A stretch of DNA of 64,000 nucleotides from Limisalsivibrio acetivorans (GTDB taxonomy: Bacteria > Chrysiogenota > Deferribacteres > Deferribacterales > Geovibrionaceae), in contig NZ_ATWF01000002.1 in assembly GCF_000421105.1 (NCBI RefSeq), forward strand, positions 496,001 through 560,000. Direction: 5' to 3'. The notes beneath the pieces were generated by a model that worked only from the letters and a program-made list of their open reading frames with translations, did not search any database and had not been told where the DNA came from. The translations under genes and the position numbers were made by a program. Below, one piece after another: positions 10,684 to 43,519 of this stretch. The number at the start of each line of letters is the position of its first letter. The stretch's first letter is position 1.

Positions 10684-11718
10684 TTATGACTGGAAAAAAC
10701 TGTGTACAGATCCGGGTTCCACCCCGTCTATAACAGTACCCGCCCCGATACGCTCTGTCAAGGCGAGGGAGAAGCCGCTCTTTCCGGCCTTTTTATCCGA
10801 AGCGAGTGCCTTAAAGAAGATCTCCTCGCTTTTGATGGTATATTCTTTTTCAAAACCGAAGGCATCAAGGATCTCTGCTATCTGCTCCGCAGTGCCTTTA
10901 TCGGTGTAGCCCTCCTTCTCACCCCAGAGGGTTTCGAGGTACATTCCGGCGGCAACGGCAAAGCCGTGCTTTATCCCGAAGCCGGAGTCGCTCTCTATGG
11001 CGTGACCGAAGGTGTGACCGTAGTTAAGGGTTTTCCGGTATCCCCCCTCCCGTTCATCCTTATTCACCACATCCGCCTTCATACGGCAGCAGGTCTCCAC
11101 AATCTCGGCCAGAAGCTCGGGCTCCCTGTCCAGAATCTCCTCCCGCTCCTCCATGAGAAGGCGGAAGAAGTCCTTATCGAACATTGCGCCGTACTTGATT
11201 ACCTCCGCAAGGCCGTTCAAATATTCCTCATCGGAGAGGGTGGAAAGGAAATCCATATCTATATAGACAGCCTCCGGCTGCCAGAAGGCGCCGATATTAT
11301 TCTTGGAACCGGAGAAGTTTATCCCCGTCTTACCGCCGACACTTGAGTCCACCATGGAAAGGAGGGTTGTGGGTATCTGGATGAAGCCGATCCCCCGCAT
11401 GTAGCACGATGCGGCAAAGCCGGCAAGATCTCCGGTTATGCCGCCCCCTATGGCGGTTATCACATCATCCCTGCGGCACCCGCTCCTCCTAAGCCATTCG
11501 AGTATATCCATCAGAGAATCGAAGCTCTTCGCATCCTCGCTCGGGGAGAATACAAAGCATTCCTTATCGCCGAAAAGCCTGGGATACAGTTGGTGAACGT
11601 TCATGTCCACCACGGGAAGGGCACATTTGGCGATGATATTCTTTATGTAGCCTCGGCCTATCTGTATGTCGTAGGAATTATCGGTAATCCCCTTTAGTTC
11701 AACCCTGAGAGTCCGCAT
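10684..11718 (-). CDS. aroB: 3-dehydroquinate synthase
   Basis: NAD- and metal-dependent second step of the shikimate pathway. It has 344 residues when started at ATG 11718 (MRTLRVELKG); the frame is open further upstream, but those residues overlap aroK and do not look like AroB. Signatures are the NAD site AIGGGITGDLAGFAAS, IPTTLLSMVDSSVGGKTGIN, AEVIKYG and the metal-binding NYGHTFGHAIES and KHGFAVAAGM. The start lies 20 bp inside the aroK end. Confidence 0.95.
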   Translation of the reverse strand: MRTLRVELKGITDNSYDIQIGRGYIKNIIAKCALPVVDMNVHQLYPRLFGDKECFVFSPSEDAKSFDSLMDILEWLRRSGCRRDDVITAIGGGITGDLAGFAASCYMRGIGFIQIPTTLLSMVDSSVGGKTGINFSGSKNNIGAFWQPEAVYIDMDFLSTLSDEEYLNGLAEVIKYGAMFDKDFFRLLMEEREEILDREPELLAEIVETCCRMKADVVNKDEREGGYRKTLNYGHTFGHAIESDSGFGIKHGFAVAAGMYLETLWGEKEGYTDKGTAEQIAEILDAFGFEKEYTIKSEEIFFKALASDKKAGKSGFSLALTERIGAGTVIDGVEPGSVHSFFQS

Positions 11719-12220
11719 TATTATAAAACTCCACAATCTGCTCCGCCGCCTCTTCGGGGGGAGTATCGGTGGTGTCCACGAGAAAATCCGTATCGATATA
11801 GAAATGCGCCCTGTCAAAGAGCATCTTCTTTATCTGATCCAGCGGATCCTCCACATTAAGCAGAGGGCGGCACTTATCGTTCTTCGTTCTCTCGAATATG
11901 ACATCCGCCGAGGCGAGGAGGCTTACAAGAAGACCCTCCTTTCTCATCATATCCATATTCCCTCTCGTTACAACGATTCCGCCGCCGGTGGAAACCACAA
12001 GGTTTTTGCGTGAGGTTATCTCGGTTAAAACCTCACTCTCTATATTACGGAAGACCTCTTCGCTTTCGTCCTCAAAGATCTCCTCAACGGTTTTGCCCGT
12101 CTTCATCTCTATCATGGAATCGGTGTCGCAGAACTCCATATCCAGCTTCTCGGCCAGAATCCTCCCCACCGTGCTTTTTCCTGTACCCATAAATCCGATG
12201 AGATATATATTTTTGCGCAT
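11699..12220 (-). CDS. aroK: Shikimate kinase
   Basis: Phosphorylates shikimate in aromatic amino acid synthesis. The 173 residues include the P-loop GFMGTGKSTVGR, the shikimate-binding DTDSMIE, the STGGGIV motif and the lid Arg in NDKCRPLL. Start is ATG at 12220. About 76 bp separate it from the upstream penicillin-binding protein gene. That gap contains an AT-rich stretch that could hold a promoter, but I see no convincing consensus boxes. Confidence 0.95.
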   Translation of the reverse strand: MRKNIYLIGFMGTGKSTVGRILAEKLDMEFCDTDSMIEMKTGKTVEEIFEDESEEVFRNIESEVLTEITSRKNLVVSTGGGIVVTRGNMDMMRKEGLLVSLLASADVIFERTKNDKCRPLLNVEDPLDQIKKMLFDRAHFYIDTDFLVDTTDTPPEEAAEQIVEFYNNADSQG

Positions 12221-36182: not shown

Positions 36183-37004
36183 ATGGCATTTAATAATATC
36201 GGAATCATAGGCCCGGGGCTTATCGGGGGCTCTCTCGCAAGAGCCTTCGCCGCCTCGGGTCTTTGTGTATATGCACTGGACAGCTCGGCGGACACCCTTG
36301 CAGAGGCCGCAGGTTCCCAGATTTTCGAAGGGCTCACAGATGATATGGAGACCTTCCTCTCCTTCCCTCTGGATCTTATCTATATCTGCGTCCCCGTCAA
36401 AACAGCCGTTAGGGTGATCGAGGAGCTTAAAGGCTGCAGTGTGCCCGTAACCGATGCTTCCAGCACCAAAGGTACCGTTATAAATGCGGCAAGGGATGCG
36501 GGGCTGAACTTCTGTGGAGGGCACCCCATTGCGGGGAGCGAGAAGTCCGGCTTCAAACACTCCGATGCAGAACTATTCAGCGGCGCATACCATATAGTAA
36601 CACCCGTATCAGAAGATTTTGACATAGCCGCACTTGAAGAGATCCACAGGAATATCGGCATGAAGACCAAGCGGATGGATGCGGATAAGCACGATCTTAT
36701 CTTCGGTGCCATAAGCCATCTGCCCCATATAACTGCCTTCTCTCTTGTGGAAACGGTTCGTGGGGCGGAATCAACAGCACTCGAATACACTGGCGGAGGC
36801 TTTCGGGATTTCACAAGGATAGCCGCCAGCGATGCCAGGATGTGGACGGATATATTCCTCGATAATCAGGATAATATGATTGAACTCATCGACAGCTATA
36901 TAGAATCGCTCATCAGGTGGCGTGAGGAGATCCGGCAGGGTGACGAAGAAAGCATCTTCAAACGGATCGAAGAGGCCGCCGCCATCAGGAGGGGACTGCA
37001 ATGA
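36183..37004 (+). CDS. tyrA: Prephenate dehydrogenase
   Basis: 273 residues. The NAD-binding Rossmann motif is GIIGPGLIGGSLARAF. The substrate site includes VTDASSTKG, GGHPIAGSEKSGF and AISHLPHITAFSL with the catalytic-site His. It makes 4-hydroxyphenylpyruvate for tyrosine. No ACT domain is present, so feedback control is probably exerted through DAHP synthase. It overlaps aroA by 4 bp. Confidence 0.95.
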   Translation: MAFNNIGIIGPGLIGGSLARAFAASGLCVYALDSSADTLAEAAGSQIFEGLTDDMETFLSFPLDLIYICVPVKTAVRVIEELKGCSVPVTDASSTKGTVINAARDAGLNFCGGHPIAGSEKSGFKHSDAELFSGAYHIVTPVSEDFDIAALEEIHRNIGMKTKRMDADKHDLIFGAISHLPHITAFSLVETVRGAESTALEYTGGGFRDFTRIAASDARMWTDIFLDNQDNMIELIDSYIESLIRWREEIRQGDEESIFKRIEEAAAIRRGLQ

Positions 37005-38284
37005 CAACATACGAAATGATAAAAGGGCTTCGCGGGGAGATTGAGGTTCCCACCGATAAATCCATAACCCACCGCTCCTTCATGCTCGGCGGTATGGCAG
37101 AAGGTACAACACGGGTCACGAATCCTCTTATGTCAAGGGACACCAAGGCCACCATGGCCGCCATGCAGGCACTCGGTGCAGAATTCAGCCCCATCGAAAA
37201 CGGATTCATAATAGAATCCAAAGGCTTCAGGAACTTTATCGAGCCTTCGAACATAATCAACTGCGAGAACTCCGGCACAACGGCCAGGCTCCTGACAGGT
37301 GTTATCACGCCAGCAGGTGTATACGCAGTTCTCACGGGGGATGACTCGCTACGCAAACGCCCCATGGACAGGGTTATCAAGCCACTCTCCGAGCTCGGAG
37401 CAAGGATGGAGGCGGCCTCCGGCGGAAGCCTTATGCCCCTGACGATCCTCCCCTCGGTTATGAAGCCGGGAGTTATCGATGCCGTCACCAAGAGTGCCCA
37501 GGTAAAAAGCTCCATCCTCCTCGCAGGTGTACAGCTTGAAGGAACCACAATATATAATGAAAAGGTTCCCACCCGTAACCATTCGGAGATTATGCTCAGA
37601 CAGTTTGGTGCGGATGTACAGACTGACGGCCTCTCCATAGCCGTACACGGAGCGGAGAAGCTCACCCCCAGCGATGTTCAGGTCCCCGGCGACATCTCCT
37701 CAGCCGCATTCTTCATCGGTGCGGCTCTCATGTTTGAAAACAGCTCCGTTACCATCAAAAACGTAGGGCTCAACCCCACAAGAACCGGAATAATCGAGGC
37801 ACTGGAAGGCTTCGGAGTTAAGATAGAGAAACACCTCCACCCCACCGAAGGCGAGCCCATAGGTGACATCCATATTGAATCCCAGAATTTCAAGGGGGGA
37901 TGCGTGAAGGGGGAGATCATCGCAAACATGATAGACGAGCTCCCCATGCTCGCCCATCTCGGTCTTTTTGCCGAAAACCCCGTGGAGATAAGGGAGGCGG
38001 CGGAGCTTCGTGTAAAGGAATCGGACAGGATTTCAGCAGTTGTCCACAACCTCCGCCAGCTCGGTGCACAGGTTGAGGAATATGAGGACGGCCTTAAGGT
38101 TTATCCGCTGGAGAAACTTACGGGGGAAGGAAAGCTGAAGAGCTTCGATGATCACAGGATAGCGATGCTCAGTATTCTGCTCTGCAAACGCTTCGGATCA
38201 AATGTTTCTGTTGACGAAACCGCCTCTATTGATGTATCGTTTCCGAACTTTCCGGAAATTCTCAGTACAATAGAGGTTCGATGA
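37001..38284 (+). CDS. aroA: 3-phosphoshikimate 1-carboxyvinyltransferase (EPSP synthase)
   Basis: 427 residues, full length. Motifs are GEIEVPTDKSITHRSFMLGG with PEP/shikimate-phosphate Lys, NCENSGTTARLLTGVI, DDSLRKRPMDRVI, PGDISSAAFFI, ELRVKESDRIS and DHRIAMLSILL. The conserved NSGTTxRL segment is of the class II kind rather than the LGNAGTAMRP of class I enzymes; class II EPSP synthases are generally less glyphosate-sensitive, which is family knowledge only. It overlaps the following fusion gene by 4 bp. Confidence 0.95.
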   Translation: MTTYEMIKGLRGEIEVPTDKSITHRSFMLGGMAEGTTRVTNPLMSRDTKATMAAMQALGAEFSPIENGFIIESKGFRNFIEPSNIINCENSGTTARLLTGVITPAGVYAVLTGDDSLRKRPMDRVIKPLSELGARMEAASGGSLMPLTILPSVMKPGVIDAVTKSAQVKSSILLAGVQLEGTTIYNEKVPTRNHSEIMLRQFGADVQTDGLSIAVHGAEKLTPSDVQVPGDISSAAFFIGAALMFENSSVTIKNVGLNPTRTGIIEALEGFGVKIEKHLHPTEGEPIGDIHIESQNFKGGCVKGEIIANMIDELPMLAHLGLFAENPVEIREAAELRVKESDRISAVVHNLRQLGAQVEEYEDGLKVYPLEKLTGEGKLKSFDDHRIAMLSILLCKRFGSNVSVDETASIDVSFPNFPEILSTIEVR

Positions 38285-41200
38285 ACATCAGAATCGCCGT
38301 TGACGGACCGGCAGGGAGCGGCAAAAGCACCGTTTCCAAACTTGTTGCAGGAAAATTCAATATAACCTATCTCGACACTGGCGCAATGTACCGTGCCTGT
38401 GCCTTCGTTAAGAATAATTGGAACATTTCCGACGAAGAACTACCCGAACTCCTCGGGCGGGTGGAGATGCGTTTCGAGCCCGATTCTGATATCCAGAGAA
38501 TGTATATTACTGTCGATAATGATGATATAGACGTCACAAACGATATCCGCACACCGGAGATAACCTCCATGGTTGGGCAGGTAGCCTCCAACCCGAAGGT
38601 TCGGGAAATAATGACCACAAAGCAGAAGGAGATAGCCGCCAAGAGCTCTGTCGTAATGGACGGAAGGGATATCGGCACAGTCGTTATCCCCGATGCGGAG
38701 GTTAAGTTCTTCCTCGTTGCCGGTGTGGAAGAGAGAGCAAAACGCCGCAGGGAAGAATGGCTTTCCAAGGGTGAGGACGTTCCGCTGGAAGAAATCATCG
38801 AAGATATACGCAAAAGGGATGAGATGGACTCGAAAAGAGCGAGCGCACCCCTTAAAAAAGCGGAAGATGCCATAGAAATTGACACAACAAACTTGACAAT
38901 AGATGAAGTTGTAACAATAATGGTTGCTGCGATTGAGCAGCACGCCGGAAAGTCACGCATAGATGTACACCTTGCGGAGAATGCCGGATTCTGCTTTGGA
39001 GTGGAAAGAGCCGTGGGTCTTGTGGAGCAAACCGCAAGGCAGAAGACAAATGTTTACACACTCGGCCCCATTATCCACAACCCGCAGGTCGTGGGACGCT
39101 TCGCCGCCAGCGGCGTTCATGTCTGCAACGACCTCAACGAACTGGAAAAGGATGCCACTGTTGTTATCCGTTCCCACGGTGTCAGCAGTGATACTTATAA
39201 AGATATCGACGCTAAAGACGTCGGAATGGTCGACGCCACATGCCCATTCGTAAAAAGGGCCCAGAAGAAGGCCCGCCAAAGCAGTGAAAAAGGGCATACT
39301 GTGGCGGTATATGGAGAAAAGGAACACCCTGAAGTTGCAGGAATTGTCAGCTTCATCAATGGCGAATATTTCATCATCTCCGGTCCGGACGAAGCCGAAG
39401 AGCTTCCAAGACGGGAGTCCTACTCCTTAATTGCACAGACCACCCAAAATAGAGAAGAGTTCGAAAGAATCAGAAAGATTCTTGAAGATAAATGCAGCAG
39501 CCTGGTAGTTGAAAACACTATCTGCAGTGCCACTGACCAACGCCAGACCTCCGCAATAAACCTTGCGGAAGAGATGGACGCCATGATCATAATCGGCGGT
39601 AAAAACAGCGGCAATACTAAAAGGCTGTATGAAATCTGCAGGAGCATCTGTCCCAGGTCCTATCATATAGAGACAAAGGAAGAGATCACTCCTGATATGT
39701 ATAAAGACTGTAAAAACATCGGGGTTACCGCGGGCGCTAGTACGCCGGGGGACCTCATAAAGGATGTTATAGAATACTTTGGAAGGGGTCAGGATATGAG
39801 TGAAAATAACACAAACAGTAACGACGAAATGAGAATGGAGGATTTTGAAACGCTTCTTGAAGAATCGTTTCAGCTTCCCGAGAAAGGTTCCATCATCAAA
39901 GGAGTCGTTGCCCAAATCAACGACAACGAAATCCTCGTAAACATCGGCTACAAGACCGAGGGAATCGTTCCCAGGAGCGAGTTCGAGAAGAAAGGCGAGC
40001 TCGAGATTGAGTCCGGTGACGAGGTAGAGATCATGTATCAGGGCATGACCGGCGGCGGAGGCTACATCAAGCTTTCCAGAAAGGCCATCGAAAAAGAAGC
40101 GGACTGGATAGCGGTTGAGAAGGCCCTCGAATCAGGCGAATACGTGCCTGTAAAAATCGTTAACAACGTAGAGAAAGGCTTCCTCGGCAAGTTCGGCGAG
40201 GTGGACTGCTTCATCCCTGAAAACCACATCGACTTCAAGAACAGAATGCAGGCTCCCGAAGAGTATGTCGGACAGGAGTTTGAATGCAAGGTTCTTAAAA
40301 TAAACAAGAAACAGCGTTCGTTCCTCGGCTCAAGGCGTATCGCCATGAGCGAAACACTCGATAAAGACCGCAAGGATTTCTTCGAGAAGGTTGAAGAGGA
40401 GCAGGTTCTTAAGGGCTACGTTAAGACCATCAAGAACTACGGCGTTTTCATGAACTTCGGAGCAGTAGACGGCTTCATGCACAAGAACAATATCGGCTGG
40501 GGCGTTGTTAAGCACCCCTCACAGTTCCTTGAGGAAGGTGATGAGCTCGAGGTTCTCGTACTTGGCGTTGACAGAGAGAACGAAAAACTCGAAGTAGGCC
40601 TTAAGCAGATGAGCGAGGATCCCTGGCTCTCAGCAGCAGAGAAGTATCCCGAAGGAACTCAGGTTAAAGGAACCGTTATCACACGCAAGAGCAAAGGCTT
40701 CGTGCTTGAGCTTGAGCCCGGTGTGGACGGATTCATACCCCAGGATGAAATCAGCTGGCTTAAAAACTCCAAGGTTAAGCTTGAGCCCAAGGATGTTGTG
40801 GAAGGAAGCGTTATCGGAATCGACAACAATAACAAAAAGGTTCTCGTTTCCCTCAAGCTCCTCACAGACAACCCCTGGAACAGCCTCAAGGACAAGCATC
40901 CCGAAGGTTCGGTTGTTAAAGGTACCATCAAGAGCGTTACCGAATTCGGACTTTTCATCGATTTCGGCGAATTCCTCGATGGACTCATCCGTAAGAAGGA
41001 TATCTCATGGACAGACGAGCCCGAGGATCTCTCAGACTTCTCCGAAGGTCAGGAGATCGATGTTAAGATACTCAAGATCGACCCCGAAAGGGAGCGTATC
41101 AGCCTCGGTATCAAACAGCTTGAGCCCAACCCCTGGAGAGAGATAGGCAAGCTTCTTCCCAACGGAAAGGTAACCGAAGTTGAGATAACCGGCCTCACAA

Positions 41201-41514
41201 AAGACGGTATCCAGGTTGCTCTTCCCAAGGATCTCACAGGCTTTATACCCGCCTCTGAGGTAGATGTAGATAAGGTAGACCCCACTGAAAAATTCAAGGT
41301 GGGCGATAAGATAAAAGCTATCGTACTCAGAAACGACCAGAAAGAGAAGAACGTTATCCTCTCCATCCGCAGATATATGCAGGATTCAGAGAAGCGCGAG
41401 GTTAAGGAATTCCTCAAGAAGATGGATGACGGCAACAGCACCTTCAGCCTCGGAAGCATGCTGAAGGATAAGCTCAACGCCCTCGACAACGGCGAGGAAA
41501 ACGAAGAGCAGTAA
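38281..41514 (+). CDS. cmk/ispH/rpsA: Cytidylate kinase - IspH - ribosomal protein S1 fusion
   Basis: 1077 residues without interruption. Residues 1-222 are cytidylate kinase (DGPAGSGKSTVSKLVAGKFN, YLDTGAMYRA, MDGRDIGTVVIPDAEVK). Residues 227-500 are 4-hydroxy-3-methylbut-2-enyl diphosphate reductase, with all three Fe-S Cys ligands: Cys238 in AGFCFGVERAV, Cys321 in DATCPFV, Cys415 in NTICSATDQRQ. From 506 onward there are about six S1 RNA-binding repeats (for example GYVKTIKNYGVFMNFGAVDG, GTIKSVTEFGLFIDFGEFLD). Cmk is often followed by rpsA, and IspH-S1 fusions are known in other phyla. An internal ribosome-binding site before Met506 suggests that separate S1 is also made. Confidence 0.93.
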   Translation: MNIRIAVDGPAGSGKSTVSKLVAGKFNITYLDTGAMYRACAFVKNNWNISDEELPELLGRVEMRFEPDSDIQRMYITVDNDDIDVTNDIRTPEITSMVGQVASNPKVREIMTTKQKEIAAKSSVVMDGRDIGTVVIPDAEVKFFLVAGVEERAKRRREEWLSKGEDVPLEEIIEDIRKRDEMDSKRASAPLKKAEDAIEIDTTNLTIDEVVTIMVAAIEQHAGKSRIDVHLAENAGFCFGVERAVGLVEQTARQKTNVYTLGPIIHNPQVVGRFAASGVHVCNDLNELEKDATVVIRSHGVSSDTYKDIDAKDVGMVDATCPFVKRAQKKARQSSEKGHTVAVYGEKEHPEVAGIVSFINGEYFIISGPDEAEELPRRESYSLIAQTTQNREEFERIRKILEDKCSSLVVENTICSATDQRQTSAINLAEEMDAMIIIGGKNSGNTKRLYEICRSICPRSYHIETKEEITPDMYKDCKNIGVTAGASTPGDLIKDVIEYFGRGQDMSENNTNSNDEMRMEDFETLLEESFQLPEKGSIIKGVVAQINDNEILVNIGYKTEGIVPRSEFEKKGELEIESGDEVEIMYQGMTGGGGYIKLSRKAIEKEADWIAVEKALESGEYVPVKIVNNVEKGFLGKFGEVDCFIPENHIDFKNRMQAPEEYVGQEFECKVLKINKKQRSFLGSRRIAMSETLDKDRKDFFEKVEEEQVLKGYVKTIKNYGVFMNFGAVDGFMHKNNIGWGVVKHPSQFLEEGDELEVLVLGVDRENEKLEVGLKQMSEDPWLSAAEKYPEGTQVKGTVITRKSKGFVLELEPGVDGFIPQDEISWLKNSKVKLEPKDVVEGSVIGIDNNNKKVLVSLKLLTDNPWNSLKDKHPEGSVVKGTIKSVTEFGLFIDFGEFLDGLIRKKDISWTDEPEDLSDFSEGQEIDVKILKIDPERERISLGIKQLEPNPWREIGKLLPNGKVTEVEITGLTKDGIQVALPKDLTGFIPASEVDVDKVDPTEKFKVGDKIKAIVLRNDQKEKNVILSIRRYMQDSEKREVKEFLKKMDDGNSTFSLGSMLKDKLNALDNGEENEEQ
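39781..39798 (+). promoter_or_regulatory. Internal ribosome-binding site and start codon for stand-alone S1
   Basis: GGAAGGGG (39781-39788) and AGGA (39791-39794) precede an in-frame ATG at 39796-39798. Translation from it gives a 572-residue S1 protein, close to the 557 residues of E. coli S1. The junction region (MSENNTNSNDEMRMEDFE) looks like the N-terminus of a free S1 protein. Confidence 0.55.
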
Positions 41515-41545
41515 GCTTCCCACTAAATTCCGGAAAACTGACCCC

Positions 41546-41580
41546 GCCCCCTCCCTAAAAAGAGGGGGCGTTTTCTTTTA
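41546..41580 (+). terminator. Rho-independent terminator of the aromatic/cmk-ispH-rpsA operon
   Basis: Perfect stem GCCCCCTC/GAGGGGGC (41546-41553 with 41562-41569), 8 nt loop, followed by GTTTTCTTTT. It lies about 30 bp after the stop codon. Confidence 0.9.
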
Positions 41581-42446: not shown

Positions 42447-43519
42447 CCTGGATTCAATAATTAAGTGCAACTTTTAAGTAGTGGTCAAAAGAGGTCAGGT
42501 GCGTTAGCATCGTAGCTCTTTAACCACCACGTCAAAGGAGCACCGAATGAAGAACTATACACACCTGACCCGTGAACAAAGGTACCAGATTTATGTGCTG
42601 AGGAAAACCGGACATTCTCAGACGGACATAGCTGATTTGCTTAAAGTACATAAATCTACCATCAGCCGAGAGTTACGCAGAAACACAGGAGGTCGTGGTT
42701 ATCGCCCAAAGCAAGCTCATCGCAAAGCTATTGAACGAAGAATGGACAAGGTCCCAAGACGGATTGCACAAACTGAATGGTATTTTGTTGAACGTCTTCT
42801 GCTTGAAGACTGGAGCCCTGAGCAGGTGAGCAATTGGCTAAATCAAAATTATGGAATAAACGTAAGTCATGAGCGTATCTACCAGCACATTCTTGAAGAT
42901 AAAAGTCATGGTGGAACACTTTATACTCACCTGCGTTGCCGAAGAAAACGCAGGAAGCGATATGGTGTTTATGAACGCAGAGGAGAGATACATGGCAAGT
43001 TAAGCATTGAGCAGCGTCCAAGTATTGTAGAAGAGAAAGCGAGATTCGGAGACTGGGAAGTGGATACAGTTATAGGAAAAGGGAACAAGCAGGCGATTGT
43101 TTCTCTTATTGAGCGGAAGTCTTATCTGACACTTATACGCAAGGTAGAAAGAAAGACTGCTGTACTGGTGACAAAAGCGGTTATAGAAATGTTGAAACCG
43201 ATATCACACCTAGTCCATACAATCACTTCCGATAACGGGAAAGAGTTTGCAGGACATGCCGAAATATCTGAGATACTAGGGGCTGAATTCTACTTTGCTC
43301 ATCCATATGCTTCGTGGGAACGCGGAATAAACGAAAATACAAACGGACTCATTAGGCAGTATGTACCAAAGAGTAGGATGCTTGAAAGTGTTGATGATAT
43401 AGAGATTCAGAATATTATGCAGAAACTAAACAACAGACCAAGAAAAGCAACTGGATATAAAACTCCTAACCAGATACTATTCTCTATAGACCCCGTTGCA
43501 CTTGCTAGTTGAATTCAGG
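42447..43519 (+). mobile_element. Complete IS30-family insertion sequence, 1073 bp
   Basis: Bounded by 25 bp imperfect terminal inverted repeats: left 42447-42471 (CCTGGATTCAA...AAGTGCAAC) and right 43495-43519 (reverse complement CCTGAATTCAA...AAGTGCAAC). 20 of 25 positions match. ATG duplications flank both ends. It carries one intact DDE transposase in the plus direction. The insertion sits inside the non-coding hairpin region, so no gene is disrupted. Removing the element and one ATG restores a continuous spacer. Confidence 0.88.
42547..43512 (+). CDS. IS30-family transposase
   Basis: 321 residues, apparently intact. An N-terminal helix-turn-helix (LTREQRYQIYVLRKTGHSQT, IADLLKVHKSTISRELRRN) recognises the inverted repeats. 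The catalytic DDE triad is visible as GDWEVDTVIG, TITSDNGKEFAGH and GINENTNGLIRQY, the last being the IS30 signature. AGGAG lies 6 nt before the ATG. The TGA stop is inside the right inverted repeat, a compact arrangement. Confidence 0.95.
   Translation: MKNYTHLTREQRYQIYVLRKTGHSQTDIADLLKVHKSTISRELRRNTGGRGYRPKQAHRKAIERRMDKVPRRIAQTEWYFVERLLLEDWSPEQVSNWLNQNYGINVSHERIYQHILEDKSHGGTLYTHLRCRRKRRKRYGVYERRGEIHGKLSIEQRPSIVEEKARFGDWEVDTVIGKGNKQAIVSLIERKSYLTLIRKVERKTAVLVTKAVIEMLKPISHLVHTITSDNGKEFAGHAEISEILGAEFYFAHPYASWERGINENTNGLIRQYVPKSRMLESVDDIEIQNIMQKLNNRPRKATGYKTPNQILFSIDPVALAS

Follow-up and report, generated by a model that had tools for sequence, protein, structure and literature searches.

A Cmk-IspH-ribosomal protein S1 fusion frame in Limisalsivibrio acetivorans, likely a nested gene with two products

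A single open reading frame in Limisalsivibrio acetivorans joins CMP kinase (Cmk), IspH, and ribosomal protein S1, and is judged likely to be a nested dual-product gene, from which a minor Cmk-IspH-S1 chain and, by way of an internal start, abundant free S1 would be made. The window analysed comprised 64,000 nucleotides of contig NZ_ATWF01000002.1 (assembly GCF_000421105.1), and all positions are counted from its first letter. In the proposed course of events, the ancestor had cmk, ispH, and rpsA next to one another or with slight overlaps, and small indels would have brought ispH and rpsA, and in the lineage of the window also cmk and ispH, into one frame. Initiation at 38281 would now yield a minor chain of 1077 aa, besides which no source of Cmk and IspH is evident, and independent initiation at the ATG at 39796 would yield a free S1 of 572 aa as the main S1 product, probably aided by mRNA from a putative promoter inside cmk. 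The attachment of Cmk and IspH to S1 would accordingly be a tolerated by-product and not a selected three-way machine. The features that can be read from the sequence itself are the common frame, the intact S1 start signals, a step in codon usage, the lost ispH start, and the repeated occurrence of fusions.

The three-part frame and its genomic setting

The frame (38281..41514, + strand) runs from ATG 38281 to a TAA ending at 41514 and comprises 1077 codons without internal stop, as the initial annotation had described; its domain limits, three cluster cysteines, and estimate of about six S1 repeats were recovered as well by profile matches and motif positions. The CMP kinase domain (residues 5-219, 38293..38937, +) was matched by PF02224 (Cytidylate_kin, 234 bits) and passed the cut-off of the (d)CMP kinase model TIGR00017 (239.3 bits, cut-off 135.55), with the P-loop GPAGSGKST at residues 9-17. 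The IspH domain (residues 229-499, 38965..39777, +; PF02401 (LYTB), 314 bits) was aligned with PDB 3dnf and carries the cluster cysteines C238 (in AGFCFGV), C321 (in DATCPF), and C415 (in NTICSA); the remaining IspH active-site motifs and the Cmk motifs were all found in the frame by motif position and by the 3dnf alignment. Six S1 repeats (PF00575) were located at 39877-40080, 40129-40320, 40387-40596, 40645-40857, 40894-41115, and 41161-41370 (+), together spanning 39877..41370 and starting at about residue 520 of the fusion. The stretch MEDFETLLEESF (residues 519-530, 39835..39870, +) is placed like the N-terminal helix that anchors E. coli S1 to the ribosome. Against the NCBIfam IspH/S1 model NF000907 the fusion scored 768.4 bits (cut-off 624), the cluster cysteines and the six S1 repeats sharing one open frame and IspH activity being predicted.

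The aroA gene (EPSP synthase, named from its translation; 37001..38284, +) shares four bases (ATGA) with the start of cmk, and genes for DAHP synthase and prephenate dehydrogenase, also named from translations, lie 5' of aroA. A terminator-like hairpin with a T-rich stretch behind it (41545..41570, +) stands 3' of the fusion frame. About 1 kb downstream of the fusion lies an IS30-like transposase ORF (42547-43512, 321 aa, named from its translation). It lies where the GC content of the window is lowest (0.418), and its codon adaptation (0.469) is below that of all other window genes.

The genome (2.97 Mb, three contigs, 99.99% complete) contained no second ispH, no second full-length cmk (the sole other cmk-like match being weak and partial), and no second multi-repeat S1 gene by S1-domain search, in which two further open frames, 719 and 730 codons long, matched only by single repeats. 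The weak partial Cytidylate_kin match (E 2.5e-5; 12005-12196, - strand) falls within a 173-aa ORF (11699-12220), which probably encodes another P-loop kinase.

The Cmk/IspH junction and a promoter-like site within cmk

The cmk-ispH-rpsA operons of about 40 relatives were compared, and a tree of 39 genomes was used. The gene order was kept, with small gaps or overlaps, in nearly all of the 40 relatives, and all three genes were found in one frame in this genome alone. The unfused operons of other Deferribacterota agree with the window in gene order and in the S1 start site, but their genes lie in separate frames with stops and with ispH start codons. Where relatives start ispH (ATG in 25, GTG in 13, and an ATG one codon later in 2), the window has ATA (38959..38961, +; residue 227), with a weak Shine-Dalgarno (SD) sequence (synonymous recoding p = 0.43). 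Because the loss of the ispH start accompanies the open frame, the junction argues for a real and settled fusion and against a sequencing indel, and with ATA at this position IspH would be made efficiently only within the long chain. A triple fusion arising by chance or artefact is unlikely, since the genome is in three contigs and two changes coincide at this junction (the open frame and the lost ispH start codon).

It is quite improbable that the first junction is a sequencing or assembly error, by which cmk would be separate and the real fusion, like that of the sister genus, would be IspH-S1 only. A single indel among the final cmk codons would indeed close the frame, and no other of the roughly 40 genomes is fused there; however, with an ATA in place of ATG or GTG and a weak SD, a separate ispH would be without an ordinary start, and the completeness of the three-contig assembly speaks against the error as well.

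At the 3' end of the cmk part, a promoter-like site was found (TTGACA-17-AATAAT, 11 of 12; 38893..38921, +). In all 12 family genomes listed, the site retains its TTG ACA codons, even though TTG mostly makes up 1-7% of leucine codons there. A comparable site is present outside the family as well, in genomes of f4 and in one of f8. Synonymous recoding reaches the window site about 3% of the time (p = 0.028). Promoter-like sites across the region occur at chance level (5 found, 5.7 expected), so that the case for a promoter rests on conservation. On mRNA from such a promoter within cmk, S1 alone could be started by an ordinary start codon.

Separate initiation of IspH, which would make the Cmk-IspH linkage partial too, would have to use the AUA at 38959 or the in-frame ATG at 38920 (residue 214). 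AUA is a weak initiator in E. coli; here it stands exactly at the ancestral start position, with the promoter-like site just upstream. The SD energies of the two candidates (-3.5 and -0.5) are nevertheless no better than those of synonymous recodings (p = 0.43 and 1.0), and ATG 38920 overlaps the second hexamer of the promoter-like site, which leaves this possibility highly improbable.

In four relatives (G021, locus L038; G033 and G039, L039/L040; G046, L042), cmk and ispH were already in one frame with in-frame stops between them, in G021 a single TAG. Since only in-frame stops separate the two genes, these operons are one or few substitutions away from the same fusion.

The predicted internal S1 start at the IspH/S1 junction

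In the reading as a nested gene, free S1 would start at the second junction, at a predicted internal start codon (ATG, 39796..39798, +; residue 506) that aligns with the position at which unfused relatives start rpsA. The SD sequence GGAAGGGG (39781..39788, +; duplex energy -7.4) before it is the strongest among the 40 in-frame ATG, GTG, and TTG codons of the frame, whose own start has -6.4. The ATG and a purine-rich SD are kept in seven of seven fused genomes, the window included. With this start codon and SD, the S1 part is complete in itself and would give the predicted free product of 572 aa (39796..41514, +). As synonymous recoding reaches the window SD 8% of the time (p = 0.08), in part because the C-terminal residues of IspH favour purines, the SD of the window is not significant and on its own no more than suggestive. 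In G030, G006, and others, the automatic choice of the best SD fell on a nearby later ATG and not on the rpsA start position.

Codon adaptation was calculated with 19 genes for ribosomal proteins and EF-Tu, taken from ribosomal clusters, as the reference, and rises from 0.62 upstream (Cmk 0.617, IspH 0.616) to 0.813 in S1, which exceeds every reference gene (0.64-0.81) and all other genes of the window. The step at S1 was matched by none of 20000 permutations. Uniform translation of one chain would not be expected to give such a step; it is also possible that the step is a relic predating the fusion. However, relatives of genus g2, in which ispH and S1 are fused as in the window, retain the step too.

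Because the S1 start codon, its SD, and the very high codon adaptation are all intact within the frame, most S1 is probably made free of Cmk and IspH. The tie between the parts would thus probably be one-way: with no stop before S1, Cmk and IspH stay joined to S1 unless cleavage separates them. The proposal of the initial annotation, that three functions are tied to one chain, therefore appears to hold for Cmk and IspH, barring cleavage, and is not supported for S1, which has its own start signals.

Recurrence and meaning of IspH-S1 fusions

L. acetivorans belongs to the same family as Geovibrio (PMC13186404), and the window adjoins genus g2 of this family in the tree. Fused ispH-rpsA genes were found in seven of the genomes examined, including that of the window. 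The fused or split state changed at least four times on the 39-genome tree, counted by parsimony only on a tree with an open fork near its base and with some draft genomes. Within genus g4, one genome (G003) is fused and two others are unfused, with a difference of two bases between their junctions, immediately 5' of the rpsA ATG. The repeated changes of state and the two-base difference suggest that ispH-rpsA fusion is a minor accident that has happened repeatedly to adjacent frames. In the survey of Deferribacterota that the initial annotation had suggested, then, the ispH-rpsA fusion recurred, and the triple fusion was confined to the window among about 40 relatives.

Further triple fusions were sought across genome sets and none was confirmed: no fused cmk-ispH appeared among the matches listed for 291 genomes of the phylum of G054, and among the matches listed for 291 genomes of the clostridial class the cmk frames were at most 512 aa long. 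Apparent long frames in G470, G350, G497, G409, G398, and others were rejected, as the frames crossed stops and the loci were separate genes. A whole-protein scan of named genomes returned one relative, a Deferribacterales MAG, with 71% identity in the best segment. In two relatives, single genes seem interrupted in frame, namely cmk of G009 (L044), ending near locus position 441, and rpsA of G010 (L050), in which the S1 frame ends near 2111; draft-assembly errors may account for both.

The three-part architecture is not unprecedented: a CMP kinase-IspH-RPS1 protein of Candidatus Arthromitus is listed by Rao et al. 2015 (Fig. 2a; PMC4746011), in which, by its published description, the three parts follow one another as they do in the frame of the window. 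Candidatus Arthromitus belongs to the Bacillota, unlike the Deferribacterota fusion, and all examined relatives of the window are without the triple fusion; the present case is therefore apparently a second, independent instance of a known architecture. The mention of IspH-S1 fusions in other bacteria was well founded, as 447 IspH-RPS1 proteins have been described and a joint function proposed for them (Rao et al. 2015, PMC4746011). In these 'Rosetta stone' proteins (NF000907), IspH is joined directly to S1 as in the window, and the junction has an SD and a putative start within the frame in both, namely in 34 of 34 fusion genes examined; the window differs by its N-terminal CMP kinase and by six S1 repeats, compared with four in most clostridial members (PMC4746011). 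The text of Rao et al. 2015 (PMC4746011) contains neither the word 'internal' nor the term 'start codon', and in the part of the literature covered no published report of an internal S1 start in IspH-S1 fusions was found; clostridial proteomics papers gave no fragment sizes for IspH-S1, and a Ribo-seq paper on C. ljungdahlii does not discuss the fusion.

The junction was further examined in 34 IspH-S1 fusion genes of Clostridia and Fusobacterium, taken from 30 loci of the class of G534 and from G534, Pusillibacter, Subdoligranulum, and Fusobacterium, the last from another phylum (L152-L181, L139, L142, L144, L151). In all 34, the strongest SD of the ORF lies at the IspH/S1 junction, usually as AAGGAGGT, a few bases 5' of an in-frame ATG or GTG. 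The Lys-Glu pair encoded by this SD is written AAG GAG in all 26 genes having the pair, so that 52 of 52 codons end in G, where the usage of the individual genes would predict 17.6 +/- 3.2, and neighbouring codons vary; the 34 genes are related to each other and do not represent independent trials. Recoding of the whole seven-codon stretch gene by gene was weaker (clostridial median p 0.047). The tails of 12 standalone IspH proteins were mostly without the SD sequence, the strongest exception (L193) having S1 directly downstream. S1 was richer than IspH in C-ending codons in 23 of the 34 genes (p = 0.006). From codon choice at the junction, the internal S1 start of IspH-S1 fusions is apparently under selection.

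A single functional chain, selected to place IspH, and here also Cmk, on the ribosome, e.g., to sense redox state or iron and so to act on translation or the stringent response, is considered unlikely. The open frame with intact catalytic motifs would fit it, as would the recurrence of fusions and their frequency in anaerobic Clostridia (81 of 99 genomes above the NF000907 cut-off); the IspH-RPS1 of C. thermocellum, when expressed in E. coli, was an active single polypeptide, and a sensor role has been proposed by Rao et al. (PMC4746011). On the other hand, the S1 start signals and the codon step are still present inside the frame, and fused and split states occur within one genus (g4), in which the linkage would be dispensable because the state varies.

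The evidence tips slightly towards IspH-S1 fusions in general being nested dual-product genes as well, in which a selected internal start would supply S1 in abundance as a free protein, next to a minor chain in which all IspH (here also Cmk) would be permanently tagged with S1 and possibly recruited to the ribosome. Such fusions occur in hundreds of anaerobes and have been taken as evidence linking isoprenoid synthesis to translation; if the nested reading is true, operon collapse, and not joint function, would explain them. Were the internal S1 start universal, both the inference of a functional link and the annotation as 'bifunctional' would be misleading, and S1 start sites would be mis-annotated in many genomes. 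The triple fusion would be the extreme case: apparently, the cell can produce its CMP kinase and this Fe-S enzyme in no other form than N-terminally joined to S1. Cmk is fused to other partners in AroA-Cmk (NF008816), Cmk-Der (NF007071), and PanC-Cmk (NF010004), and the window scores far below the cut-offs of these three models.
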